Shown: positions 11,949 through 24,640 of the stretch, piece by piece | Position numbering within the stretch: position 1 is the stretch's first letter | Layout of the letters: the number at the start of each line of letters is the position of its first letter | Assembly (NCBI RefSeq): GCF_012163135.1 | Contig: NZ_JAAVUP010000001.1 | Coordinates: 124,001 to 188,000 of the forward strand | DNA from: Neoroseomonas oryzicola | GTDB lineage: Bacteria; Pseudomonadota; Alphaproteobacteria; Acetobacterales; Acetobacteraceae | Direction of reading: 5' to 3' | Length of the DNA stretch: 64,000 nt | Program-made: the position numbers and the translations under genes | The notes under the pieces: generated by a model | The model's database searches: none | Seen by the model: the letters and a program-made list of their open reading frames with translations, nothing else | Told to the model about the DNA's origin: nothing

Positions 11949-12799
11949 GCCCGTCCTCCCGGCGCCAATACTGGAAGGGAGGAGAAGCGGGTGTCGAGGT
12001 GCTCGATCTCGAGGAACCCGGCATCGGTGCCGAAGGCCTTGTAGATCGGGAAGGTCTTCAGCACCCCGAGCGTCGCCGCACTTTCGAGCGGCGAGATGAA
12101 GGCGCAGTCGTTGTCGCCGTAATGCGGCTGTCGCATCCAGTGCGCCAGCTGCGCCGCCGTCACCGCGAAGAAGCCGCTGTGCGGGTTGGTCGCGCGGCGG
12201 AAGGTGGTGGGGCCGAGGCGGAGGAATTCCTCGTCCGGCAGCGGGTCCTGCCAGGGCGCGAGCAGGCCCGGCCGCAGGTCGCCGTCGATCCAGGTCTTGA
12301 GGCTCGGCCCCGCCGGGTTCCATTCGAAGCGGTTCGGCATCAGCAGCCGCTTCGGCCCGAAGGCGTCCTGGAACGCCATGATCTTGGCGACGAAGCCGGG
12401 ATCGCCGACCCGCAGGTCGTCCTCGGAATAGCAGAACAGGTCGTAGGCGTTGCGGTTGTCCGCGAACAGCTGTCGCGCCGCGAAGCCGATCATGCGCGGA
12501 TTGTCGACCTGAACCGTCACCTGCCGCACGCCGCGCGCCTTGGCGTGGGCCGCGTCGACCAGGTGGTCGGCGCCGTTGGTCAGCACCACGATGTCGAGCG
12601 CATCGAGCACGCCGCGCATCCGCTCGTAGCGCTTCGCGGCGATGTTGATCGCCGTGGTCGGGCCGAAGGTGCCGCGCCAGGAATCGATCGTGCGCCTCAG
12701 CGCCTCCGCCCGCTGGTCGCGCCGGTGCGCATCGGTGGAGGAATGGCGCGAGCCCTCCTCCGCCCTGAAGTAGTGCGTCAGTGCGAGGAGGACGCGCAT
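11945..12799 (-). CDS. Probable glycosyltransferase-like protein of unknown specificity
   Basis: 284 residues. I do not recognise a named family. The N-terminus MRVLLALTHYF is a short beta strand without a signal peptide. A segment CYSEDDLRVGD (acidic residues 125-128) follows a strand, as the DxD-like nucleotide-sugar site does in GT-A glycosyltransferases, and FFAVTAAQLAHWM and HYGDNDCAFISPLESA resemble acceptor-side loops. Its acidic EDDL motif recalls the two larger glycosyltransferases at 23513 and 54801, though overall similarity is low. Its start shares one base with the stop of the gamma-glutamyltransferase-like gene and its stop overlaps the amidohydrolase start. The enzymatic call is an inference. 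Confidence 0.55.
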   Translation of the reverse strand: MRVLLALTHYFRAEEGSRHSSTDAHRRDQRAEALRRTIDSWRGTFGPTTAINIAAKRYERMRGVLDALDIVVLTNGADHLVDAAHAKARGVRQVTVQVDNPRMIGFAARQLFADNRNAYDLFCYSEDDLRVGDPGFVAKIMAFQDAFGPKRLLMPNRFEWNPAGPSLKTWIDGDLRPGLLAPWQDPLPDEEFLRLGPTTFRRATNPHSGFFAVTAAQLAHWMRQPHYGDNDCAFISPLESAATLGVLKTFPIYKAFGTDAGFLEIEHLDTRFSSLPVLAPGGRA

Positions 12800-14640
12800 C
12801 AGCGCCCGACCGCGTAGCCCTGCATGCCGCGCGGATTGGCGCCGGCGCGGATGGTGCCGTCCGCCTCCCGCCGCACGCCGGTCAGGCGGCCTTCCGACCA
12901 CTCGCCGCCCATCTCCGCGAGGTGCCCGCGCGCGTTCAGCTCCTGCAGCACCTCCGGCGCGTAGCGGCCTTCGATCACCACCTTTCCCGGCTTGGCGCCG
13001 CGCGGCCAGAAGGAACTGATCCAGTGCTCGGAATGGAAGGAGGGCAGGTCGATCGCCTGCTGGATGTTCATCCCGTGATGGATCATCCGCAGCAGCATGA
13101 TGGGCTGCCACTGGTCCTGCTGCTCGCCGCCCGGCGTGCCGAAGGACATCCAGGGCTTGCCGTCGCGCAGCACCATCGAGGGCGAGAGCGTCGTGCGCGG
13201 CCGCTTGCCGGGCTGCAGGCCATTCGGCAGCGTCTCGTCCAGCCAGAACATCTGGCAACGGCTGCCGAGGCAGAAGCCGAGCTCCGGGATGGCCGGGGAG
13301 GATTGCAGCCAGCCGGCGGAGGGCGTCGCGCTGACCATGTTCCCCGCGGCGTCGATCACGTCGACATGGCAGGTGTCGCCGCCCGCGGCGCCGAGGCGCG
13401 AGACGGTCGGCTCGCCGGACCCCGCCGCCGCCGCCAGCTCCTGCGCCCGGCGGATCGCCGCGGCATAGTCCGTGCGCGGCGCGCGGCCATCCGGGCTGCC
13501 GGGGCGGAAGTCCATCGACGCCTCGGGCCCGATCAGCGCGCGCCGTGCGTCATTGTAGGCCTTGGACAGCAGCGTCCGCATCGGCACGTCGACGAAGTCG
13601 GGGTCGCCGTAGAAGGCCTCGCGGTCGGCGAAGGCGAGCTTCTGCGCTTCCACGACGTGATGGATGAACTCCGCGCCGACCGGGTCCATGGCATCCACGT
13701 CGAAGCCGGCCATCAGCGCCAGCGTCTGCAGCATCGCGGGACCCTGGCTCCAGGGGCCGCACTTCAGGACGGTGTGGCCGCGGTAGTCGAGGGTCAGTGG
13801 CGCCTCGACGGTCGCCGACCAGCGGGCCAGGTCGCCGCCGTTCAGCACGCCGCGATGGCGACGGCCGGAGGTGTCCATCGCCTCCGTCGTCGCGGCGAAG
13901 CGGGCGATCGCCTCGGCGACGAAGCCGCGATACCAGGCCGTGCGGGCGGCCTCGATCTGGCGCACGCGGTCACCGCCGGCGGCCTCGGCCTCGCGCACCA
14001 CGCGCTCATAGGTGTCGGCGAGCGTCGGATTGGCGTAGACGCCGTTCGGCTCCGGCCCGCCATCGCGCAGCCACAGCGCGGCGGAGGTCTTCCATTCGGC
14101 CTCGAACAGCGGGCGCACGCTTTCGATCGTCGCGCGGATGCGCGGGACCATCGGCGCGCCATGCCGCGCATAGCCGATGGCGTAGGCGAGCACGTCGCGC
14201 ACCGTCCAGCTGCCGTGGTCGCGCAGCATGACCATCCAGGCATCGAAGGCGCCCGGCACCGGCGTCGCGAGCAGACCCGTGCCCGGCACGAGGTCGAGGC
14301 CGAGGTGGTCGCGCAGATAGCCCACCGTCAGCCCGGAAGGGGCGGGGCCCTGGCCGCAGATCACCTCCTGCCGGCCGGTGCGCGCGCTGTGCAGGATGAT
14401 GGGGCAGTCGCCGCCCGGCCCGTTCAGGTGGGGTTCCACGATCTGCAGCGTGAAGCCGGCCGCGACGGCGGCGTCGAAGGCGTTGCCCCCGCGTTCCAGC
14501 ACCGCCATCCCGACCTGGCTCGCGAGCCAGTGGGTGGAGGCGACGGCGCCGAAGGTGCCGATGATTTCGGGACGAGTGGTGAACATCCGGGGCGGTTCCT
14601 TCGCGGGGAAGCCGATCATCTCCGGCGTGGCGACGGACAT
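12799..14640 (-). CDS. Gamma-glutamyltransferase family protein (Ntn hydrolase)
   Basis: 613 residues, close to bacterial gamma-glutamyltransferases. The large-subunit part has GVASTHWLAS-type sequence (here GAVASTHWLASQVG), GGNAFDAAVAAGFTLQIVEPHLNGPGG and LTLDYRGHTVLKCGP. The expected autoprocessing threonine is about residue 423 in GGDTCHVDVID, where the small subunit would begin. SFGTPGGEQQDQW near the C-terminus matches the conserved GGxGG-type loop imperfectly. No signal peptide is visible, so it may be cytoplasmic, unlike classical periplasmic enzymes. Family members hydrolyse or transfer gamma-glutamyl groups or act as acylases. It is the first gene of a three-gene overlapping operon. 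Confidence 0.85.
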   Translation of the reverse strand: MSVATPEMIGFPAKEPPRMFTTRPEIIGTFGAVASTHWLASQVGMAVLERGGNAFDAAVAAGFTLQIVEPHLNGPGGDCPIILHSARTGRQEVICGQGPAPSGLTVGYLRDHLGLDLVPGTGLLATPVPGAFDAWMVMLRDHGSWTVRDVLAYAIGYARHGAPMVPRIRATIESVRPLFEAEWKTSAALWLRDGGPEPNGVYANPTLADTYERVVREAEAAGGDRVRQIEAARTAWYRGFVAEAIARFAATTEAMDTSGRRHRGVLNGGDLARWSATVEAPLTLDYRGHTVLKCGPWSQGPAMLQTLALMAGFDVDAMDPVGAEFIHHVVEAQKLAFADREAFYGDPDFVDVPMRTLLSKAYNDARRALIGPEASMDFRPGSPDGRAPRTDYAAAIRRAQELAAAAGSGEPTVSRLGAAGGDTCHVDVIDAAGNMVSATPSAGWLQSSPAIPELGFCLGSRCQMFWLDETLPNGLQPGKRPRTTLSPSMVLRDGKPWMSFGTPGGEQQDQWQPIMLLRMIHHGMNIQQAIDLPSFHSEHWISSFWPRGAKPGKVVIEGRYAPEVLQELNARGHLAEMGGEWSEGRLTGVRREADGTIRAGANPRGMQGYAVGR

Positions 14641-14720
14641 CGGCCGTGGTCCTCGGTCTTGCGCCGAACGTCGTCGCGCAGCAGAGGGAGCGCGTCAATC
14701 CTCGCGAGGGCCTTGGACGG

Positions 14721-15272
14721 ATGCTGGTGGCGGTGGTCGGGCCCTCGGGGGCGGGCAAGGACACGCTGATGGGCCTCGCCCGCGCGCGGCTGGAGGGCGA
14801 CGCCCGTTTCCGCTTCGTGCAGCGCAGCATCACGCGCCCGGCCGAGGCGGGCGGGGAGGCGCACCGCGCCCTGTCCGTCGCCGCCTTCGAGGCCGAGCGC
14901 ACCGCCGGCGCCTTCGCCCTGTGGTGGGGCGCGCATGGCCTGTTCTACGGCATCCCGCGGGACATCGAGGCCGACCTCGCCGCGCGCCGGGTGGTGGTCG
15001 CGAACCTGTCGCGCGGCGCGCTGGCCGAGGCGGCGGGCCGCTACCCGCTGCGCGTGCTGAACATCACCGCGACCTTTGCCGTGCTGGCCGCGCGCCTCGC
15101 GGCGCGGGGGCGCGAGAGCGCAGACGATATCGCCGCGCGCTTGGCGCGGGAGGCTGCGCTGCCCGCGGGTCTCGACGTCGCGACGGTATCGAACGACGCG
15201 ACGCCGGAGGACGGCGCCGCGCGGGTCGTCGCCGAACTCAGGCGCGCAGCGGCAGACGCTCGGCGATCGTGA
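14721..15272 (+). CDS. phnN: Ribose 1,5-bisphosphate phosphokinase PhnN
   Basis: 183 residues from the ATG at 14721. It phosphorylates ribose 1,5-bisphosphate to PRPP, the last step of the C-P lyase pathway. The Walker A loop GPSGAGKDT (residues 7-15) has the KDT ending typical of PhnN rather than guanylate kinase, followed by FVQRSITRPAEAGGEAH and the FALWWGAHGLFYGIP acceptor region. Its last 35 bases overlap the end of the DUF1045 gene on the other strand. It is divergent from the gamma-glutamyltransferase-like gene, so it has its own promoter within 14641-14720 and is not co-transcribed with phnG-M. Confidence 0.9.
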   Translation: MLVAVVGPSGAGKDTLMGLARARLEGDARFRFVQRSITRPAEAGGEAHRALSVAAFEAERTAGAFALWWGAHGLFYGIPRDIEADLAARRVVVANLSRGALAEAAGRYPLRVLNITATFAVLAARLAARGRESADDIAARLAREAALPAGLDVATVSNDATPEDGAARVVAELRRAAADARRS

Positions 15273-15918
15273 AGGGCGCGCCCGGTTCCGGCTGCACGAA
15301 GAGCGAGAGCGAGGTGACCCGCCGCGGCCGGCCGGCGGCCTCGCCGAGGAAGGCCGTCACCGCCGGCATGACCACCGCCTTCTCCTCGGGGGCAAGGCGC
15401 CGCGTCAGCGTGACGTGGAAGCGCCATTCCTCGAAGACATAGGGATAGCCCCAGCGGTCGAGGTAGTCGCGCTGCCGGCCAGAGAGCCGTTCCGGGCGGC
15501 GGCGCGCGATCTCGGCCTCGCTTGGCGGCACGCGATGGTCGTCGAGCGCTTCGACGCAGGCATTCGCGAAGGCGGTCAGCGCAGGGCAGGGGACGGATTC
15601 CCGCAGCGCCAGGAAGCCGTCGAGGTCATGCACCGCGAGCGGCGGCAGGTCGAAGGGCGCCGTCCGGCCCGCCAGCGCCGCCGCGGCGTCGCGCGCCGCG
15701 GCGTATCCCCGCGCCAGCCGGAAGGGCGGTTTCAGCGTCGCATGCAGACCATAGCCGCGCGGATCGGCCGTGAGTTCGGCCAGGTCCATGCCGTCCACCG
15801 CCGGCTGTGCCTGCGCCTGCCCCGACGCGGCGTCGCGCCCGAGCCAGGTGCTGCCCAGCGTATGCAGCGCGTCGTCGTCTTCCGGCGCCCAGTAGAGCGC
15901 GAGCCGCCACGGCGTCAT
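15238..15918 (-). CDS. DUF1045 phosphonate-operon protein, 2H phosphoesterase superfamily
   Basis: 226 residues from the ATG at 15918, which overlaps the phnM stop by four bases. Two HxT motifs, HATLKPPF (His59, Thr61) and HVTLTRR (His168, Thr170), define the 2H phosphoesterase fold, whose members open cyclic phosphates or ligate RNA ends. This family is a known companion of alphaproteobacterial phn operons, with no settled role known to me. It is the last gene of phnGHIJKLM, and phnN, the next enzyme in the pathway, converges on it. Because no phnP is in the window, hydrolysis of phosphoribosyl cyclic phosphate is an attractive inference. Confidence 0.88.
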   Translation of the reverse strand: MTPWRLALYWAPEDDDALHTLGSTWLGRDAASGQAQAQPAVDGMDLAELTADPRGYGLHATLKPPFRLARGYAAARDAAAALAGRTAPFDLPPLAVHDLDGFLALRESVPCPALTAFANACVEALDDHRVPPSEAEIARRRPERLSGRQRDYLDRWGYPYVFEEWRFHVTLTRRLAPEEKAVVMPAVTAFLGEAAGRPRRVTSLSLFVQPEPGAPFTIAERLPLRA

Positions 15919-17057
15919 GCGACGCGGCTGCCCTCGCGCCACACCCGGCGCACCACCGGGATGCCATGGACCGCCCGCACCTGGGCGAGGTCGGCCCGCA
16001 GCCCCGGCGCGAGACGCCCGCGATCGGCGAGCCGCGCCATCCGCGCTGGCCGGTCGGTGATCATGGCGACGGCTTCGGGGAGGGAGATGCCGGTCTCCTC
16101 CGCCGTCCGCCAGGCAGCCTCGACCATCGAGGCCGGCACGTAGTCGGAGGCGAAGGCATCCGCCGCGCGCGCGCGCACCAGATCTGCCGCGGCAACGTTG
16201 CCCGAATGGCTGCCGCCGCGGACGATGTTCGGCGCCCCGGCTATGACGCCGACACCCGCGTCGCGCGCCGCCTCGGCGGCTTCCATCGTCACCGGGAACT
16301 CGCTGATGGCGATGCCGTCGGCGAGGTTACGGCGAACTTCCTCGGCACTCTGGTCGTCATGCGAGGCGATGGCGAGGTCGCGGTGCCGGATCCGGTCGAG
16401 CAGCCAGCGCCGCTGCGGTTCGCGCAGGCGCTCCCGCTGGTCGAGCAGGAAGGCGATGCGATCCTGCACCTGCTCGACCGTCATCTGGGTCTGCTTGCGG
16501 CGCATCGTCACGTAGCGCGGGATGTCGCGGTACTGGCCAACGCCCGGGGAGTGATCCATCAGGCTGACCATCAGCACGCGCGGATGATCGGCGACCGGGT
16601 CCATCGCCGGCACCATGTCGGCCGCCGGCAATTCGCAGCGGAGATGCAGGAAGTGCTCGGAGCGCAGCACGCCGGTCTCGGCCAGCGCGTCGAGGTCGGC
16701 GACGCCGTCGAGGAAGGTCTGCCCGCGACCCTGGTCGAAGCCGAGATCGCCAAGGCAGAGCGCGTCGAACACCGTCGTCACGCCCGCCGCCGCGCATTGC
16801 GCGTCATGCGCGATCATCGCGGACCGCGACGGCCAGCGCGCGTTCTGCCGCGGCTGCACCTGGCGTTCGAGGTTGTCGGTATGCACGTCGACCACGCCGG
16901 GGATGAGGTGATCACCCTCAAGGTCGCGCGCGGCGGCCGAATGGCTGCGGCCCGGCTGGATCTCGGCGATGCGGCCGCCGCGGATCACCAGCGTGCCCGG
17001 CAGGGTTTCTTCCGGCAGGACGAGGATGGCGTTGGTGAGGATGGTCTCGGCGGTCAT
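15915..17057 (-). CDS. phnM: PhnM, ribose 1-methylphosphonate 5-triphosphate diphosphatase (copy 1)
   Basis: 380 residues from the ATG at 17057. PhnM removes pyrophosphate from alkylphosphonate ribose 5-triphosphate, giving the substrate of the C-P lyase PhnJ. It has the amidohydrolase-superfamily TIM barrel: GVVDVHTDNLERQ (metal-binding region, about residue 60), LMDHSPGVGQY, IASHDDQ and GAPNIVRGGSHSGN, and the late Asp in FASDYVP. These are hallmark PhnM motifs. It overlaps phnL upstream and the DUF1045 gene downstream, four bases each. A second, clearly diverged phnM lies at 22353. Confidence 0.93.
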   Translation of the reverse strand: MTAETILTNAILVLPEETLPGTLVIRGGRIAEIQPGRSHSAAARDLEGDHLIPGVVDVHTDNLERQVQPRQNARWPSRSAMIAHDAQCAAAGVTTVFDALCLGDLGFDQGRGQTFLDGVADLDALAETGVLRSEHFLHLRCELPAADMVPAMDPVADHPRVLMVSLMDHSPGVGQYRDIPRYVTMRRKQTQMTVEQVQDRIAFLLDQRERLREPQRRWLLDRIRHRDLAIASHDDQSAEEVRRNLADGIAISEFPVTMEAAEAARDAGVGVIAGAPNIVRGGSHSGNVAAADLVRARAADAFASDYVPASMVEAAWRTAEETGISLPEAVAMITDRPARMARLADRGRLAPGLRADLAQVRAVHGIPVVRRVWREGSRVA

Positions 17058-17752
17058 GCGGCGTCCTGGTGGGGGATCACGTCGAAGAGGCGGTCGGCGA
17101 CGGCCTCGCGCACCTCGGCATCGTGGAAGATGCCGACGACGGCGGTGCCGGCGGCTTTGGCCTCCCGGATCATCTCGACGACCACGGCGCGGTTCCCAGC
17201 ATCGAGGCTGGCGGTCGGCTCGTCGAGCAGGAGGACGGGATAGCCCGGCGCGAAGCCGCGCGCCAGATTGACCCGCTGCTGCTCGCCGCCCGAGAAGGTC
17301 GCGGGCGGCAGGCCGTGCAGGCGATCGGGCAGGTTCAGCCGCGAGAGCAGCGCGGTCGCGCGGGCCAGCGCCTCCGCCTTCACCATGCCGCGAGCGATCA
17401 TCGGCTCGGCCACGATGTCGCGCGTCGCGACGCGCGGGATAACACGGAGGAACTGGGAGACGTAGCCGATCGTCTCGCGCCGCGCCTCGATCACCGTGCG
17501 CGGATCGGCGGTGACGAGGTCGATCTCCTCGCCGCGATGGCGCAGCAGGATGCGCCCCGCGCCGGCGCCGTAATTGCCATAGAGGCAACGCATCAGCGTC
17601 GACTTGCCGGCCCCGGAGGGGCCCCAGAGCGCCACGCATTCGCCTGGGCTCACGACCAGGTCGACGCCGCCCAGCACCGGGATGCGCGTGCCGCCCTGCA
17701 GGTGCAGCGTGAAGGCCTTGGCGACGCCTTCGGTCCGCAGCAGCGCGCTCAT
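17054..17752 (-). CDS. phnL: PhnL, ABC-type ATP-binding protein of the C-P lyase system
   Basis: 232 residues. Walker A GPSGAGKST, signature FSGGEQQRVNLARG, Walker B VLLLDEPTASLD and the PhnL-typical opening TEGVAKAFTLHLQGG are all visible. In Escherichia coli PhnL is an ABC ATPase associated with the C-P lyase core (PhnGHIJ) and is required for methylphosphonate transfer, not an importer subunit. Start and stop both overlap neighbours (phnK and phnM) by four bases, so translation is coupled throughout. Confidence 0.93.
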   Translation of the reverse strand: MSALLRTEGVAKAFTLHLQGGTRIPVLGGVDLVVSPGECVALWGPSGAGKSTLMRCLYGNYGAGAGRILLRHRGEEIDLVTADPRTVIEARRETIGYVSQFLRVIPRVATRDIVAEPMIARGMVKAEALARATALLSRLNLPDRLHGLPPATFSGGEQQRVNLARGFAPGYPVLLLDEPTASLDAGNRAVVVEMIREAKAAGTAVVGIFHDAEVREAVADRLFDVIPHQDAA

Positions 17753-18507
17753 GCCGCGAGCACCGAGGAAACGAGAAGCTGCGTGTAGGGATGCTGAGGG
17801 TCGTCCAGCACCCGGTCGGTCAGCCCCTGTTCCACCACGCGGCCGCGCCGCATGACCAGGATGCGGTCGGCGAGCAGCCGCGCCGCCGCGATGTCGTGCG
17901 TCACGATCAGCACGGAAAGCCCCAATTCGCGCGAGAGGGATCGGATCAGGTCCAGCAGCCGCGCCTGCACGGACACGTCCAGCCCGCCGGTCGGCTCATC
18001 CATGAACACCAGCTTCGGATGCGTCACCAGCGTGCGCGCGATCTGCAACCGCTGCTGCATCCCGCCCGAGAAGGTGCGCGGCAGGTCGTCGATGCGTGTC
18101 GCGTCGATCTCGACCTTGGCGAGCCAGGACAGCGCCTCGCCGCGGATGTTGCCGTAATGGCGCGCGCCAATGGCCATCAGCCGTTCGCCGACATTGCCGC
18201 CGGCCGAGACGTTCAGCCGCAGCCCGTCGCGCGGGTTCTGGTGCACGAAGCCCCAATCGGTGCGCAGCAGGCGCCGCCGGGCGGCCTCGCCCATGGCGTG
18301 GACGTCCTCGCCCAGCCATCGCACCGTGCCGGCATCGGGCGGCATCAGGCCGGACAGGACGCGCAGCAGCGTCGTCTTGCCGGAGCCGGATTCGCCCACG
18401 ATGGCGACGACCTCGCCCTCGGCGACGTCGATCGTGACGTCGACCAGGGCGGGGATGGCGCCGAAATGCAGGGTGAGGCCCCGGGCCTCGAGCATCGGCC
18501 TGGTCAT
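17749..18507 (-). CDS. phnK: PhnK, ABC-type ATP-binding protein of the C-P lyase system
   Basis: 252 residues from the ATG at 18507. Walker A is GESGSGKTT, the signature FSGGMQQRLQIART, Walker B LVFMDEPTGGLDVSVQ, and the H-loop VTHDIAAAR. PhnK binds the PhnGHIJ core directly and is required for C-P bond cleavage. The sequence resembles nickel/peptide ATPases, but position between phnJ and phnL and the WGFVHQNPRDGLR segment identify it. Four-base overlaps join it to phnJ and phnL. Confidence 0.93.
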   Translation of the reverse strand: MTRPMLEARGLTLHFGAIPALVDVTIDVAEGEVVAIVGESGSGKTTLLRVLSGLMPPDAGTVRWLGEDVHAMGEAARRRLLRTDWGFVHQNPRDGLRLNVSAGGNVGERLMAIGARHYGNIRGEALSWLAKVEIDATRIDDLPRTFSGGMQQRLQIARTLVTHPKLVFMDEPTGGLDVSVQARLLDLIRSLSRELGLSVLIVTHDIAAARLLADRILVMRRGRVVEQGLTDRVLDDPQHPYTQLLVSSVLAA

Positions 18508-19421
18508 TCCGCGGCCTCCCGCAGGGCGACGCGGCCGCTGCAATAATCGGTGTCGGAGCAGACGAAGAGCCGACCGCCGCGATCGTCGGTGATCACCTCG
18601 TCGAGGTAGCTCTCGCGCGACCCGCACAGCGCGCAGGCATGCGGTGCGCGGATCGGGCGGAAGGGATGGTCCTCGAAGTCGAGGCTCCGCACCTCGGTAT
18701 AGGGCGGCACGGCGTAGATGCGCTTTTCGCGCCCGGCGCCGAACAGCTGCAGCGCCGGCATGCGGTCCATCTTCGGATTGTCGAAGGCCGGGATGGGGGA
18801 GGGCGCCATCAGGTAGCGCCCGTTCACCATCACCGGATAGTCGTAGGCCTTCGCGATGTGGCCGTAGCGCGCGATGTCCTCGTACAGCCGCACGTGCATC
18901 AGCCCGTAATCGGCCAACGAGTGCAGGCGCTTCGTCTCCGCGCGGCGCGGTTCGAGGCGCGACAGCGGCTCGGGCTGCGGCACCTGGTAGACGATGACCT
19001 GGTCCTCCCGCAGCGCTTGTTCGGGGATGCGGTGGCGGGTCTGGATGATCGTCGCCTCGGCGGTGCGCTCGGTCGTCGCGACGCCGGCGACGCGGGTGAA
19101 GAAGCGACGGATCGACACGGCGTTGGTTGTGTCGTCCGCACCCTGGTCGATGACTTTCAGCGTGTCGCTGGGGCCGAGGATCGCCGCCGTCACCTGGATG
19201 CCGCCGGTGCCCCAGCCATAGGGCAGCGGCATCTCGCGCGCACCGAAGGGGATCTGGTGCCCGGGGATCGCGACGGCCTTGAGGATGGTGCGGCGGAGCA
19301 TCCGCTTCGTCGCCTCATCGAGGTAGGCGAAGTTGTAGCCTTCCATCACGGGACCCTTCGTCTGGCCCGGCCGATTCAGATCTCCGCCGCCTTCGGCGCT
19401 CCGATCATCGGGCGGGCTCAT
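18504..19421 (-). CDS. phnJ: PhnJ, C-P lyase (radical SAM enzyme)
   Basis: 305 residues from the ATG at 19421, which overlaps the phnI stop; the conserved region begins at GYNFAYLDEATKRM about residue 28, so an internal start is also possible. PhnJ is the radical SAM enzyme that cleaves the carbon-phosphorus bond, releasing an alkane and phosphoribosyl 1,2-cyclic phosphate. Four cysteines, 263, 266, 288 and 294 (CALCG and CSDTDYC), have exactly the spacing of the four cysteines of the Escherichia coli enzyme (three cluster ligands plus the catalytic one). DQGADDTTNAVSIR and ALQLFGAGREKRIYAVPP are near-invariant family segments. Confidence 0.95.
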   Translation of the reverse strand: MSPPDDRSAEGGGDLNRPGQTKGPVMEGYNFAYLDEATKRMLRRTILKAVAIPGHQIPFGAREMPLPYGWGTGGIQVTAAILGPSDTLKVIDQGADDTTNAVSIRRFFTRVAGVATTERTAEATIIQTRHRIPEQALREDQVIVYQVPQPEPLSRLEPRRAETKRLHSLADYGLMHVRLYEDIARYGHIAKAYDYPVMVNGRYLMAPSPIPAFDNPKMDRMPALQLFGAGREKRIYAVPPYTEVRSLDFEDHPFRPIRAPHACALCGSRESYLDEVITDDRGGRLFVCSDTDYCSGRVALREAAE

Positions 19422-20506
19422 TCCGCGGCCTCCTGCATCGCTTCGCGCGCCAGAGCGGCGCGGATGGTCCGCAGGTTCTCCAACTCCGACTGGAAGTCGA
19501 CGTAGTGCGGCAGCTTCAGGTGTTCGACGAAGCCCGTCGCCTCGATGTTGTCCGAGTGATACAGCACGAATTCATGATCCTGCGCCGGGGCGGTGACGTC
19601 CTCCCCGAGTTCCGTCGCGCGCAGCGCACGATCGACCAGCGCCATGGACATCGCGCGCCGTTCGCCATGGCCGAAGGTCAGCCCGTAGCCTCGCGTGAAC
19701 TGCGGCGGCTCGGTGCGGCTGCCCTTGAACTGGTTCACCATCTGGCATTCGGTGATGCCGATCTCGCCGAGCTCGATCGGGAAGCCCAGTTCCGGCGGCG
19801 TGAATTCGACGGTGACGTGACCGACGCGGATCTCGCCGACGAAGGGGTGGTTGCCGCCATAGCCGCGCTGCGTCGAATAGCCGAGGGCGAGCAGGAAGCC
19901 CTCGTCGCCGCGCGCCAGGTTCTGCAGGCGAACGGGCCGCGCGGCGGGGAAGGCCAGCGGTTCGCGCGTCAGGTCGCCGGGTTCGGCGTCGGTCGCTTCC
20001 TCCCGCTGCATCAACCCCTCGCGCGCCAGCAACTCGGTCACGCGCGGCACGGCGCCAGCCGGCACCTCTGCCTGCGGCGCCTCGGCCCGATCGGAACCCT
20101 CGGCCGCCAGCGCGAAGTCGAGCAGCCGGTGCGTGTAGTCGTAGGTCGGCCCGAGCACCTGGCCGCCCGGCAGGTCCTTGTAGGTCGCGCTGATGCGGCG
20201 GCGGATCCGCATCGCGTTGGTCTCGAGCGGCTCGCTGACGCCGAAGCGGGGCAGGGTGGTGCGGTAGGCGCGCAGCAGGAAGGCGGCCTCGATCAGGTCG
20301 CCCTTGGCCTGCTTGATCGCGAGCGCGGCAAGGAAGCGGTCATGGCAGGACCCTTCCGCCATCACCCGGTCCACCGCGAGCGGCATCTGCTGCTCGATCT
20401 GCGCGACGGTCAGTTCCGGCAGCGCGGGATCGCCGCGCCGCGTCTCGTCGAGCCAGGCATGGGCGGCGGAGATCGCCCGCTCGCCGCCCTTCACGGCCAC
20501 ATACAT
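19418..20506 (-). CDS. phnI: PhnI, C-P lyase core subunit
   Basis: 362 residues from the ATG at 20506. PhnI, with PhnG, H and L, attaches the phosphonate to the ribose of ATP in place of adenine; alone it has purine nucleosidase activity. Conserved segments include MYVAVKGGERAI at the start, HDRFLAALAIKQAKGDLIEAAFLLRAYR near residue 60, GYSTQRGYGGNHPF and the C-terminal SDNIEATGFVEHLKLPHYVDFQ. It is four bases from phnH and overlaps phnJ by four bases. Confidence 0.95.
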   Translation of the reverse strand: MYVAVKGGERAISAAHAWLDETRRGDPALPELTVAQIEQQMPLAVDRVMAEGSCHDRFLAALAIKQAKGDLIEAAFLLRAYRTTLPRFGVSEPLETNAMRIRRRISATYKDLPGGQVLGPTYDYTHRLLDFALAAEGSDRAEAPQAEVPAGAVPRVTELLAREGLMQREEATDAEPGDLTREPLAFPAARPVRLQNLARGDEGFLLALGYSTQRGYGGNHPFVGEIRVGHVTVEFTPPELGFPIELGEIGITECQMVNQFKGSRTEPPQFTRGYGLTFGHGERRAMSMALVDRALRATELGEDVTAPAQDHEFVLYHSDNIEATGFVEHLKLPHYVDFQSELENLRTIRAALAREAMQEAAE

Positions 20507-20510
20507 CGGC

Positions 20511-21086
20511 TCAGCCCTCCGCGATCGCGACGGTGCGCGGCAGGGCGGCTATGCGCTCTCCCGCGCAGAGGATGACATCGACCCCCCGCGGGAAGCGCCC
20601 ACGGTTGCGCGCCCAGGCCGCGACGAAATCCGACGGCAGCCCGGTGACCGCGAGGCGGTGCTCGCGCTCGATGCCCGGGCCGCTCAGACGCCAGCCGGCG
20701 CCTTCCTCGAGGGCGGCGACCTGGACGATCAGCGTCGCGCCGCGTTCCGGCTCTTCTTCGCTGCCCGCGTTCAGGTCGGCAATTACGGGCGGCGCGCCGG
20801 TCGCGAGAACGAAGGCCGCCTCGGCGGGCATTGCGGCGAAGGGCGCACCGCAATGGAAGCGCAGCCAGGCCTCCGCATCCGTGCCGGCATCCTGCCAGAG
20901 CGTGGTGCCGGAATCGGCAAGGGCGAGCAGCACCGCCGCCGCGGCCGGCATCATCGGCGCGGGCGGGCGCAGTCCCGTGCCGGCGCGCTGGATGCGGCCC
21001 GGGCGGCTCATCGCCTCGAGCACCGCGCGGAAGGTCGCCTGGGCGTCGAGAACGGGATCGGCGAAGCCGGGGGTGAGCGTGCTCAT
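20511..21086 (-). CDS. phnH: PhnH, C-P lyase core subunit
   Basis: 191 residues from the ATG at 21086. It is a structural subunit of the PhnGHIJ core, related to vitamin B6-enzyme folds but without cofactor. The opening GFADPVLDAQATFRAVLEAMSRPGRI and the closing FPRGVDVILCAGERIAALPRTVAI match PhnH proteins of the usual length (about 190-200). The start overlaps the phnG stop, and phnI begins four bases after its own stop. Confidence 0.93.
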   Translation of the reverse strand: MSTLTPGFADPVLDAQATFRAVLEAMSRPGRIQRAGTGLRPPAPMMPAAAAVLLALADSGTTLWQDAGTDAEAWLRFHCGAPFAAMPAEAAFVLATGAPPVIADLNAGSEEEPERGATLIVQVAALEEGAGWRLSGPGIEREHRLAVTGLPSDFVAAWARNRGRFPRGVDVILCAGERIAALPRTVAIAEG

Positions 21087-21538
21087 CGCGTCGTCTGCAT
21101 GGCGAGGAATTCCACCTTGGTCGCCGCGGCGCGCCGGGCGTCCGCGTCACGCGACGCCGTCTGGCGCGTGGCGAGCGGTGCGATCACCGCGGCCATCAGC
21201 GCATCGCGCCGCGCCGGATCCTGCAGCGCCGCGTCGAGCACGGCCGCGAGTTCCGCCTGGCGCTTGTCGCGTCCGGCCACATAGGCGTGGCCCACCGTCT
21301 CGCCGAGCCGCACCGCGCAGCGCGTCACCGTCATCTCGCCGAGGTTGAAGGCATTGCCGTCCCCACCGGCCCGGCCACGCACCATGACGAGGCCGGTCTC
21401 GGGCGCGCGCAGGCGCTCATGGGCCGGAAGTTCGGGCATCAGGGCGGCGATCTCCTCGCCGCTCGCGCGGGCCAGCACGGCCATCCAGTGGCGGCGCTCG
21501 GCGTTCGGATCGGGTGGTGCACTTGTCATGGAATTCAT
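21083..21538 (-). CDS. phnG: PhnG, C-P lyase core subunit
   Basis: 151 residues from the ATG at 21538, or 148 from an in-frame ATG at 21529; neither has an obvious Shine-Dalgarno sequence. It is the small core subunit and first gene of the operon. Conserved parts are RRHWMAVLARASGEEI, RAPETGLVMVRGRAGGDGNAFNLGEMTVTRCAVRL and VAGRDKRQAEL, which align with PhnG of Escherichia coli. One inverted repeat spans its start codon, and phnF is divergent, implying that PhnF represses here. Confidence 0.92.
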   Translation of the reverse strand: MNSMTSAPPDPNAERRHWMAVLARASGEEIAALMPELPAHERLRAPETGLVMVRGRAGGDGNAFNLGEMTVTRCAVRLGETVGHAYVAGRDKRQAELAAVLDAALQDPARRDALMAAVIAPLATRQTASRDADARRAAATKVEFLAMQTTR

Positions 21539-21548
21539 CTGGACAAGT
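21521..21548. promoter_or_regulatory. Inverted repeat over the phnG start, candidate PhnF operator 1
   Basis: ACTTGTC (21521-21527) and GACAAGT (21542-21548) form a perfect 7-base inverted repeat with a 14-base spacer that covers both candidate phnG start codons. GntR/HutC regulators often bind repeats with a TTGTC/GACAA character. Whether PhnF binds here is an inference. Confidence 0.4.
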
Positions 21549-21601: not shown

Positions 21602-22348
21602 ATGGTTGAAGTTTCGATGACAGGGGCGCCTCTGGCGCGGGGCCAGGGCGTGGCGTTGTGGCGCCAGATCGCGGCCTCGCTGGAAGGCGAGATCGCCCAT
21701 GGCGGCCGTGCCGCCGGCGAACGCCTGCCGACCGAGGCGGTGCTGACGGAGCGCTTCGGCGTGAACCGCCACACGGTGCGCCGCGCGCTCGAGGATCTCG
21801 AGGCCCGCGGCCTCATCCGCGTCGAGCAGGGCCGCGGCGCCTTCGTCGCGGAGGACGTGGTCGACTACCGCCTCGGCCCGCGCACGCGGTTCTCGGAACT
21901 GATCCGCCGGCAGAACCGCGAGCCGGCTGGACGCATCCTGCGCATCTCCGAGGTCCCGGCCGAAACGCAACTCGCCGAGGCCCTCGGCATCCGGCGCGGG
22001 CGGATGGTGCTGAAGATCGACCGGCTTGGCCTCTCGAACGGGCGTCCGGTGGTGATCGGCGTGCACCACCTGCCGCTGCCGCGCTTCGCCGTGGCCGCCG
22101 ACGTGCTAGGCGCGGAAACCTCCATCACCGCGGCACTCGCCGCCTGCGGCCTGACCGACTACCGGCGGAAATCGTCCCGCATCACCGCGCGCCTGCCGAC
22201 GCCGGAGGAAGCCGACCTGCTGCAGCAGTCACGCTCGCGGCCCGTGCTGGTTTCCGAATCCCTCAACGTCGATCCCGACGGACAACCCGTGGACTGGACC
22301 CAGGCGATCTACGCCGCCGGCCGCGTGCAATTGGTGGTGGAACCCTGA
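21602..22348 (+). CDS. phnF: PhnF, GntR/HutC-family transcriptional regulator
   Basis: 248 residues from the ATG at 21602 (another in-frame ATG at 21617). The N-terminal winged helix LWRQIAASLEGEIAHG ... RLPTEAVLTERFGVNRHTVRRALEDLEARGLIRVEQGRGAFV is typical of the GntR family, and the C-terminal part (from about residue 85) fits the UTRA ligand-binding domain of the HutC group. It is probably the repressor of the phn genes. It is divergent from phnG and leads an operon with the second phnM. Confidence 0.92.
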   Translation: MVEVSMTGAPLARGQGVALWRQIAASLEGEIAHGGRAAGERLPTEAVLTERFGVNRHTVRRALEDLEARGLIRVEQGRGAFVAEDVVDYRLGPRTRFSELIRRQNREPAGRILRISEVPAETQLAEALGIRRGRMVLKIDRLGLSNGRPVVIGVHHLPLPRFAVAADVLGAETSITAALAACGLTDYRRKSSRITARLPTPEEADLLQQSRSRPVLVSESLNVDPDGQPVDWTQAIYAAGRVQLVVEP

Positions 22349-22352
22349 TCCG

Positions 22353-23495
22353 ATGGCCTGGACGATCACTGGCGGCAGCGTGCTGCGCGACGGCGCGATG
22401 CGCGCGGAGGATCTCGCCCTTGCCGATGGAGCTGTCGCCGCGGCGCCTGCGCCGGAGGCGAAGCGCTTCGACGCGGAGGGCCTTTGCGTCCTGCCGGGGA
22501 TCGTGGACATCCATGGCGACGCGCATGAACGCCAGTTGCAGCCGCGGCCGGGCGTCGACCTGCCGGTGCCGCTCGCGCTGCGCGACAGCGCGGCGCAGCT
22601 GATCGCGAGCGGCATCACCACCGCCTATCTCGGCGTGACCCTGTCCTGGGAACCGGGGCTGCGCTCGCTGGCCGCCTGGCGCGCGCTCAAGGCCGCGCTG
22701 CCGGCGGCCCGCGCCGCCGCGGCGACCGACCTGCGCGTGCATCTGCGCTTCGAGGCCGACAACCTCGACGCGCTGGACGACGCAGTGGCGGGCATCGCGG
22801 ATGGCTCGGTGCACCTGCTCGGCTTCAACGACCACACGCCAGGCATCATGAAGAAGATCGACAAGCCCGAGCAGGTGGCGAAGTTCGCCGGCCGTGCGGG
22901 GATGAAGGCGGACGCCTTCCGCAGCCTGGCCGAATCCGTCGCCGCCCGGCGCGACGAGATCCCCGCCGCCCGCGCCCGCCTTGCGGAGGCCGCCCGCACC
23001 GCCGGCATACCGATGCTCAGCCACGACGACGCGACGATCGAGGATCGCGTCCATTACCGCACCCATGGCGCGACCATCTGCGAATTCCCGATGGCCGAGG
23101 CCGTGGCGGCGGATGCGCGCGCCGCCGGCGAGCATGTCGTGATGGGCGCGCCCAACGTGGTGCGCGGCGGCAGCCATATCGGCTGGGCCTCCGCCGCACC
23201 GCTCGCCGAGCGGGGCCTCGTCACCGTCCTCGCCTCGGACTACGTCTGGCCGGCGATGCTCGAGGCCGCCTTCGCCATGGTCCGTCGCGGCGCGATGGAC
23301 CTGCCACGGGCCTGGGCGCTGGTCTCCGCCAATCCGGCCGAGGCCTGCGGCCTGACGGATCGCGGCCGGATCGCGCCGGGCCTGCGTGGCGACGTGGTGC
23401 TGGTCGATCCGGCGACACCGTCGCCCGTCGCCGTCTTCGCGGCCGGCCGTCTGGGCTGGCTCGCGCCGGGCGCCGAGACGCGCATCGCGCGCTGA
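22353..23495 (+). CDS. phnM: PhnM paralog (copy 2), phosphonate-pathway amidohydrolase
   Basis: 380 residues, four bases after phnF. It keeps the PhnM framework: GIVDIHGDAHERQLQPRPG near residue 50, LLGFNDHTPGIMKK, MLSHDDAT, GAPNVVRGGSHIGW and LASDYVWPAML. It differs from the operon copy in many places, for example HGDAHERQ against HTDNLERQ, so it is a paralog rather than a recent duplicate. It probably performs the same diphosphatase step or one on a different phosphonate-ribose triphosphate. Location directly behind phnF implies phosphate or phosphonate control. Confidence 0.88.
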   Translation: MAWTITGGSVLRDGAMRAEDLALADGAVAAAPAPEAKRFDAEGLCVLPGIVDIHGDAHERQLQPRPGVDLPVPLALRDSAAQLIASGITTAYLGVTLSWEPGLRSLAAWRALKAALPAARAAAATDLRVHLRFEADNLDALDDAVAGIADGSVHLLGFNDHTPGIMKKIDKPEQVAKFAGRAGMKADAFRSLAESVAARRDEIPAARARLAEAARTAGIPMLSHDDATIEDRVHYRTHGATICEFPMAEAVAADARAAGEHVVMGAPNVVRGGSHIGWASAAPLAERGLVTVLASDYVWPAMLEAAFAMVRRGAMDLPRAWALVSANPAEACGLTDRGRIAPGLRGDVVLVDPATPSPVAVFAAGRLGWLAPGAETRIAR

Positions 23496-23512: not shown

Positions 23513-24640
23513 ATGACCTCCTCCGCCGCCCCGGCGCCGCGCGAGATCACGGCGCCGATCATCCTCTTCGGCTTCCGCCAGCCGGATCGCCTGGCGCGCG
23601 TCTGCCGGGCGTTGCGGTCGCAGCGCGGCGTGGTGCTCGACGAACGGCGCATCCACCTGATGATGGATGGCGCGGTGTCCCCGCGCACCGGTCGCCGCTA
23701 TGCGAGCGGGGCCGAGATCGCCGCCGGCATCGCCGCGGTGCGCAAAATCTTCCCGCGGGCCGAGATCCTCCCGGCGCCGGACAACCTCGGCATCGCGCGC
23801 AACATCGCGCGTGGCGAGGACCACGCCTTCATCACCCTCGGCGCCGAATGCGCCTATTTCTTCGAGGACGACCTCGAGCCCGGCCCCTGGTACCTGCACA
23901 TGCTCGACCTGGCGCGGGAGGCGACGGCGAAGGCGGACGGGGTCGCGCATTTCGCCGTCTATGGCGATCACCGCGCGCCCGCAGTGCACGGCCCCGCCGG
24001 CTGGACGCAACTGGAACACCACTGGGCCTTCGGCCTGCACCGCGAGGCCTGGCGGCAAATTCGGGCGGAACTTGCCCCCTATGACGCCATCCTGGCGCCC
24101 GACGACTACCAGGAGCGCAACGAGGGGCGGATCCTCGCCCTCTGGCTCGCAGGCGAGTTCGGCCATGTCGCGAGTTCGCAGGATGCGGCGAAGGCGCTGG
24201 CCGCGGCGCGGCTCGGGCTCGCGCGGGTGAACACGCGGGCCTGCTTCGGCCTCTATTTCGGCGAGACGGGGGAGCATTTCACGCCCGAGATCTACCGCCG
24301 CCACGGCTTTGCGGAGGCCCAGGTCCACCGCGACGGGCCGCTGCCGCTCTCGCCGCTCGATCCGGCGGGCTTCGCGGCGGCCGAGGGCGAACGCTACCGC
24401 CATCTTCGCCGCGCCGACCTGCCGGGGCGCGTCGCCGCCTGGCAGGCGCGCCATGCGGACCCCGACCGGCCGGCGACGGAGGCCGACCTCGCCGCGCTGT
24501 ACCTGCTGCTGGCCGACCGGAAGGAGGTGCCGCCCGAGGGCCGCGCCCAGGTCGGGCGCAGCCTGCGCGAGGTCCGCGCCTGGCTGCTGCGATCCGCCGA
24601 GCCGGCCATCCTGCGCGCCCTGCGCCCGCCGCGCGGCTAG
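23513..24640 (+). CDS. Glycosyltransferase-like protein (paralog of the one at 54801)
   Basis: 375 residues, 17 bases after phnM copy 2. The fold looks like a GT-A glycosyltransferase: PIILFGFRQPDRLARVCRAL at the start, DGAVSPRTG (residues 52-60), a PAPDNLGIARNIARGED stretch, and the acidic site CAYFFEDDLEPGP (EDD at 118-120) that probably binds the metal-nucleotide sugar. GEHFTPEIYRRHGF lies toward the end of the domain, and about 90 charged residues follow. There is no signal peptide or membrane helix. The same motif set occurs in the protein at 54801. Acceptor and sugar are unknown. The stop codon lies in a repeat element. Confidence 0.7.
   Translation: MTSSAAPAPREITAPIILFGFRQPDRLARVCRALRSQRGVVLDERRIHLMMDGAVSPRTGRRYASGAEIAAGIAAVRKIFPRAEILPAPDNLGIARNIARGEDHAFITLGAECAYFFEDDLEPGPWYLHMLDLAREATAKADGVAHFAVYGDHRAPAVHGPAGWTQLEHHWAFGLHREAWRQIRAELAPYDAILAPDDYQERNEGRILALWLAGEFGHVASSQDAAKALAAARLGLARVNTRACFGLYFGETGEHFTPEIYRRHGFAEAQVHRDGPLPLSPLDPAGFAAAEGERYRHLRRADLPGRVAAWQARHADPDRPATEADLAALYLLLADRKEVPPEGRAQVGRSLREVRAWLLRSAEPAILRALRPPRG

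Follow-up and report, generated by a model that had tools for sequence, protein, structure and literature searches.

A long-retained second PhnM encoded behind phnF in the C-P lyase region of Neoroseomonas oryzicola

In the breakdown of phosphonates by C-P lyase, PhnM converts alpha-D-ribose 1-alkylphosphonate 5-triphosphate (RPnTP) to the 5-phosphate and pyrophosphate; cleavage of the C-P bond by PhnJ follows. C-P lyase sets which phosphonates are usable (methylphosphonate, 2-aminoethylphosphonate, glyphosate products) and how much methane is released. A second phnM-like gene was reported by Martinez et al. (2013) in a C-P lyase cluster from marine Rhodobacterales and, in the passage that deals with it, guessed to serve particular phosphonates (PMC3840354). 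As far as the corresponding passage of another paper goes, Roseovarius sp. HI0049 carries a homologue, the gene adjoins transporter genes, and five Sulfitobacter isolates are without it (PMC5649143); organisms with two phnM copies, one of them outside the operon, are mentioned in a passage of PMC9381506. Within the coverage of our literature search, outside which many journals fall, we found no functional test of a second PhnM and no member of the clade described below with known activity. The gene studied here, phnM2 of Neoroseomonas oryzicola, is likened to the Rhodobacterales gene by description, not by sequence: both are extra PhnM-like genes accompanying a C-P lyase cluster, the one adjoining transporter genes, the other sitting behind phnF. 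Judged from sequence, its product (M2) appears to be a second PhnM that has been well preserved and falls into a catalogued subfamily; second copies of this sort are widespread among related bacteria. What the preliminary description of this DNA observed is thereby confirmed, and its interpretation is supported in part. New here are the division into clades, the residue differences fixed between them, the counts of M2 together with PhnJ and with the operon-encoded PhnM (M1), a lineage with M2 as its only PhnM and a branch without C-P lyase.

The window, i.e., the whole stretch of 64,000 nucleotides analysed, holds a phn region with two arms (Table 1): phnG, H, I, J, K, L, phnM1 and duf1045 lie on the minus strand, and phnF and phnM2 on the plus strand. 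Both PhnM reading frames were confirmed as proteins of 380 residues on opposite arms, as had been noted before. The equal length is incidental, relatives of both kinds differing by several residues. The phnM2 frame is intact from ATG to TGA, its start codon lying 4 bp after the stop of phnF. At the other end of the region, a gamma-glutamyltransferase gene (12799-14640) adjoins phnN; many Acetobacteraceae loci retain it next to their phn genes. Matches to PhnD-type binding proteins were found elsewhere in the genome, two of them in tandem at C8:29581-31328, far from the phn region, so that the importer appears unlinked to it. An open reading frame of 375 aa (23513-24640) begins 17 bp after phnM2 and looks glycosyltransferase-like by eye, with no Pfam match. 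A unit of phnM2 with this gene was considered and set aside, because among the loci searched the two adjoin only in the window, in N. marina and in a twin record of N. marina.

Table 1. Positions in the window of the genes and the putative control element of the phn region
Feature	Position	Strand	Basis or remark
phnN ORF (ribose 1,5-bisphosphokinase), convergent	14646..15272	+	TIGR02322; real start probably closer to 14718
DUF1045 / 2H phosphoesterase-like gene (duf1045)	15238..15942	-	overlaps the end of phnM1
phnM1, canonical operon PhnM	15915..17057	-	NF011984, TIGR02318; 380 aa
phnL	17054..17752	-	operon position and matches in relatives
phnK	17749..18507	-	operon position and matches in relatives
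phnJ, C-P lyase catalytic subunit	18504..19346	-	PF06007; ORF extends to 19421
phnI	19418..20506	-	PF05861
phnH	20511..21086	-	profile matches
phnG, divergent from phnF	21083..21538	-	start codon at 21538 or 21529
degenerate copy of the palindrome TNGTMTAKACNA found between phnG and phnF in relatives	21535..21546	.	two mismatches by eye; candidate PhnF operator
phnF, GntR/UTRA regulator	21602..22348	+	TIGR02325 232.4 bits, cut-off 156.8; alternative in-frame ATG at 21617
phnM2 (M2 clade, NF011987), metal-dependent hydrolase of the PhnM family	22353..23495	+	380 aa

M1 and M2 share 34% identity over 333 aligned residues (E 7e-42), so their relationship is not due to chance, and a whole-genome search with the M2 protein returned M1 and M2 as the only relatives. 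M1 reaches 492 bits against NF011984 (cut-off 260), 416.1 bits against the PhnM equivalog TIGR02318 and 263.4 bits against NF011987. M2 scores 412.6 bits against NF011987, 31.3 bits against PF01979 (cut-off 25) and 327 bits against TIGR02318, below the curated cut-off of 390.55. NF011987 (PRK15446.2-3) bears the name 'alpha-D-ribose 1-methylphosphonate 5-triphosphate diphosphatase'; M2 lies far above its cut-off of 253, which also lets in many M1 proteins as well as a Rhodobacteraceae-like branch without C-P lyase.

The AlphaFold model of M2 (pLDDT 91.1, pTM 0.91) has amidohydrolase-superfamily enzymes as its closest solved structures (Z up to 30.9 over 313 residues, rmsd 3.0), and M2 is on this predicted model a TIM-barrel protein of that superfamily. 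Searching the solved structures by sequence with both copies returned no PhnM, only distant amidohydrolases. NagA, dihydroorotase and D-aminoacylase are like M2 in predicted fold (Z about 28-31 over 305-327 residues) and unlike it in sequence (about 10-23% identity) and chemistry, hydrolysing C-N bonds rather than cleaving phosphoanhydrides. In the amidohydrolase superfamily the metal ligands sit at strand ends; H54, D56, E134, H161, H224 and D296 (M2 numbering), the putative ligands, are placed by the model at or just after strand ends. The last four are invariant in 160/160 M2 and 92/92 M1 proteins, and H54 and D56 are present in 159 of the 160 M2 and in all 92 M1. Hence, of the claim that the metal-site segments of the two copies differ, the quoted segments themselves were correct (HTDNLERQ in M1, HGDAHERQ in M2), whereas H54 and D56 do not differ between M1 and M2. 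What differs are letters flanking the ligands, HGD in M2 versus HTD in M1 and NDH versus MDH: G55 stands in 160/160 M2 where T (T60) stands in 92/92 M1, and N159 in 160/160 M2 where M (M167) stands in 91/92 M1. E100, G102 and W321 are kept throughout M2 and found only there. With the E. coli PhnM (b4095; TIGR02318), M2 has in common its length, predicted fold, predicted metal ligands and the company of C-P lyase genes, and both show the DH-SHDD-GAPN.VRGGS-SDY motifs. M2 departs from PhnM of the TIGR02318 kind by HGD for HTD, NDH for MDH, Y/W-P for P at 299, an SWEPG motif, W321, a score under the TIGR02318 cut-off and a place outside the phnGHIJKL operon.

For the phylogeny of PhnM proposed earlier, we gathered 303 PhnM-family reading frames (at least 300 residues matched, score of at least 80), 255 of them distinct, and built a careful tree of 54 rows, a quick one of 99 rows and another of these 99 with 5 new rows. 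By score, the frames divide clearly into M2-like ones, M1-like ones (with the E. coli PhnM among them) and a small third group. The 54-row tree separates M1, with E. coli PhnM on its side and not with M2, from M2 at 100/100, a split also present in the 200/200 bootstrap trees examined and recovered in the 99-row tree (SH-aLRT 99). The two copies thus belong to separate clades and are not sisters specific to this strain. On each side, the window gene falls into a supported clade with other Acetobacteraceae/Roseomonadaceae and Elioraea, which indicates that M1 and M2 were already paired in the ancestor of these groups. Among 35 genomes of the genus (Neoroseomonas-like), a full-length M2 was found in 32, and an M1 match in all 35, two of them partial. 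In the three exceptions, M2 runs into the end of a contig (G033), is divided between two contigs (G006) or carries a frameshift (G028). The last (L042 6486-7618) is either a mutation or an assembly error, between which the data do not distinguish.

A strain-specific duplication is ruled out by the trees and the genus-wide retention of both genes. Of the two origins suggested before, old or acquired, the first stands on the 100/100 split, the Acetobacteraceae clade on both sides and the genus-wide presence. Recent acquisition by the genus is not favoured, since the Neoroseomonas M2, like M1, clades with other Acetobacteraceae/Roseomonadaceae and Elioraea; an older transfer of M2 is possible. 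The same protein occurs in N. marina at 96% identity, and M2 diverges faster than M1 in near relatives (96.3% versus 99.7% identity to N. marina). Compared with six relatives, M2 has a dN/dS of 0.12-0.37, which in every pair exceeds or roughly matches the value for M1. The window copy is not a pseudogene, and the inactive copy that had been named as a refuting case appears excluded, as far as sequence can tell, by the conserved ligands and purifying selection.

In 39 of the 80 loci fetched, phnF immediately precedes M2 in the same orientation, with phnG divergent in 38 of these 39. Other M2 loci adjoin phnCDE-type importers (e.g., in Bradyrhizobium and Rhodopseudomonas); outside the lineage of the window, linkage of M2 with a PhnD-type transporter is frequent. 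No phn gene stands beside M2 in 12/80 loci, and these 12 orphan genes have no common neighbour that is found nearby in the majority of cases. A palindrome like TTGTCTAGACAA, with at most one mismatch, occurs in 53 of 88 distinct phnG-phnF gaps compared with about 1% of shuffles, which do not correct for the fact that the pattern was picked after reading nine of those gaps. This palindrome could be the PhnF operator. In the window it is degenerate: the region scanned gave 3 mismatches, and a copy just beyond that region has 2 by eye. Where M2 does not follow phnF, the palindrome (at most one mismatch) was found upstream of 0/12 orphan, 2/34 transporter-linked and 0/8 Rhodobacteraceae-like genes, against 0.4-0.7% of shuffles. 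A sigma-70 scan found nothing. The suggestion that phnM2 is induced together with phnF gains support from the 4-bp spacing, the recurrent upstream phnF and the operator-like palindrome in relatives, which make such joint control likely.

The co-occurrence of M2 with C-P lyase was assessed in an even draw of 289 Alphaproteobacteria, calling M2 at 340 bits or more against NF011987 and above the TIGR02318 score; at the M2 places of this sample the NF011987 score exceeds that of TIGR02318. PhnJ is present in 48/289 genomes. Of these 48, 26 carry M2, as does one (G188) of the 241 genomes that have no PhnJ; M1 accompanies M2 in 25 of the 26, and the remaining 22 PhnJ genomes have M1 and no M2. PhnM1-type matches were also seen in seven genomes without PhnJ (G049, whose neighbourhood is L039, G074, G159, G198, G296, G281 and G151), two of them in pieces. 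A draw of 398 genomes of the phylum gave M2 in 31, of which 26 were new; PhnJ was found in 24 of the new ones, all 24 having a second, non-M2 match as judged from NF011987 bits alone, which in G614 is of the third kind. Taking both draws together, PhnJ is present in 50/53 M2 genomes and another, non-M2 PhnM match in 49 of the 50. Moreover, in 45/45 named genomes M2 and M1 are accompanied by a single PhnJ, also in those with an unlinked M2, although these genomes were reached via M2 loci and some are of the same species as in the draws. M2 thus co-occurs with PhnJ, as an accessory gene of C-P lyase would, with exceptions in one family only, f23, to which all three PhnJ-less genomes belong.

In this family, a Rhodobacteraceae-like one by our assignment, one branch of M2 has conserved neighbours that are not phn genes, namely groEL, an EamA transporter, NUDIX, an alpha/beta hydrolase and purK/purE (eight loci: L215 8511-12063, L257, L258, L259, L261, L263, L264 and L033; not each gene in each). 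The three genomes (G188, G544 and G569) have neither PhnJ nor another PhnM match, and in the 54-row tree the f23 branch is separated at 100/100 from that of the window. From this setting it follows that not every M2 serves C-P lyase and that the NCBIfam name, RPnTP diphosphatase, may be wrong for the f23 branch.

A second family, f37, provides the strongest argument for M2 function. Among its 17 genomes, the eight with PhnJ all have PhnM and the nine others have neither; two of the eight carry M1 only, three carry both, and three carry M2 only (G199, G369 and G372). In these three, duf1045 directly follows phnL, where relatives carry phnM1, and the other phn genes remain. The gene order was read by tblastn in L252 and L253 and by gene calling in L214, with duf1045 read from the antisense frame, in comparison with L255 and L256. 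If C-P lyase works in these genomes, M2 must perform the PhnM step there, and their keeping M2 alone suggests that it probably can. All three are of the same genus, in which M1 was probably lost just once. The loci L252 (3056-14344), L253, L254 and L214 hold C-P lyase operons without phnM1 that keep phnM2 and a PhnD-type importer. A first phnCDE importer, beside phnN in L255 and L256, was not seen in the M2-only loci, where phnD2-phnC-phnE2 and M2 remain.

Altogether, we consider it fairly probable that M2 is a functional second RPnTP diphosphatase of the C-P lyase pathway, co-transcribed with phnF and with a pocket changed relative to M1. We propose a model in which M2 is an ancient paralogue of the amidohydrolase-fold PhnM, most likely with the same chemistry as M1, whose altered pocket would handle those RPnTP species or conditions with which M1 copes poorly. 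A phnF promoter would give a phnF-phnM2 unit, divergent from phnGHIJKL-phnM1-duf1045; PhnF would hence probably control both arms. The step catalysed by M2, the shared promoter and the difference in substrate are what we infer here. Against this reading weigh the TIGR02318 score below the cut-off, the 12 loci with M2 apart from phn genes and lacking the palindrome, the f23 branch, the restriction of the M2-only genomes to one genus, the degenerate palindrome of the window and the faster change of M2. A substrate preference unlike that of M1 is plausible, as it would fit the retention of both copies, the differences flanking the ligands and the linkage to PhnD-type transporters. The nearest competitor, possible although we doubt it, is that M2 acts on the very substrates of M1 and is kept for dosage or for separate regulation via phnF or the transporter genes: every predicted ligand is common to the two proteins, M2 apparently replaces M1 in the M2-only genomes, and the two genes sit on different arms. 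Against such redundancy stand the clade-fixed residues next to the ligands (G55 versus T60, N159 versus M167), the M2-only E100, G102 and W321, and a co-retention dating from before the Acetobacteraceae radiation, as a copy kept for dosage alone would often be lost.

It is unlikely, in our view, that M2 instead does housecleaning, stripping pyrophosphate from ribosyl 5-triphosphates that the PhnGHIL nucleosidase forms off the pathway (e.g., ribose 5-triphosphate, or adducts with phosphate or phosphite) rather than feeding PhnJ. The NUDIX family is rich in sanitising pyrophosphohydrolases, and the Rhodobacteraceae-like branch adjoins a NUDIX gene; that M2 is a near-strict companion of C-P lyase and M1, and that its differences from M1 are fixed beside the ligands, would also suit a cleaning role. 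Yet the three genomes with M2 as sole PhnM need an RPnTP diphosphatase if their pathway works, and 22 of the 48 PhnJ genomes of the class sample manage without M2. We give still less weight to a substrate outside phosphonate breakdown, for which the spot behind phnF would be incidental: the PhnJ-less f23 genomes with their non-phn neighbourhood and the 12/80 loci with an unlinked M2 and no palindrome would agree with it, whereas PhnJ is present in 50/53 M2 genomes against 48/289 of the class sample, the three exceptions all lie on the f23 branch, far from that of the window, and the 45 named genomes have all three genes even with M2 unlinked. A decaying or inactive copy is highly improbable, because the frameshift in one genome of the genus and the faster change relative to M1 are set against a full-length copy in 32/35 genomes, a dN/dS well below 1, conserved ligands and a confidently predicted fold.

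Returning to the functional second diphosphatase, we tentatively extend it to a broader scheme, itself rather doubtful as yet, in which alphaproteobacterial C-P lyase would commonly use two anciently separate PhnM, with M1 encoded in the core operon and M2 linked with either the regulator or a PhnD-type importer. M2 would act on an RPnTP class of its own or remove dead-end ribosyl triphosphates; the phosphonate range would then depend on PhnM as well as on the importer, and the Rhodobacteraceae-like M2 would have moved out of phosphonate breakdown into a constitutive pyrophosphohydrolase role beside NUDIX. If PhnM comes in two non-interchangeable kinds, the substrate range may be partly set at the PhnM step, and surveys that use phnM as a single marker lump together two or three families, including one that is also found without C-P lyase.

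The third kind, M3, contributed 3 rows to the main trees, where it groups with M1, and 5 more were added later, leaving the M2 clade unbroken (99). By tblastn, no phn core gene was found beside the M3-like stand-alone PhnM in L269-L272. Elsewhere, M3, which bears an HGDM signature, accompanies a divergent second C-P lyase set (L273 3683-10800 and L034 14231-19354), with phn genes at about 29-48% identity.
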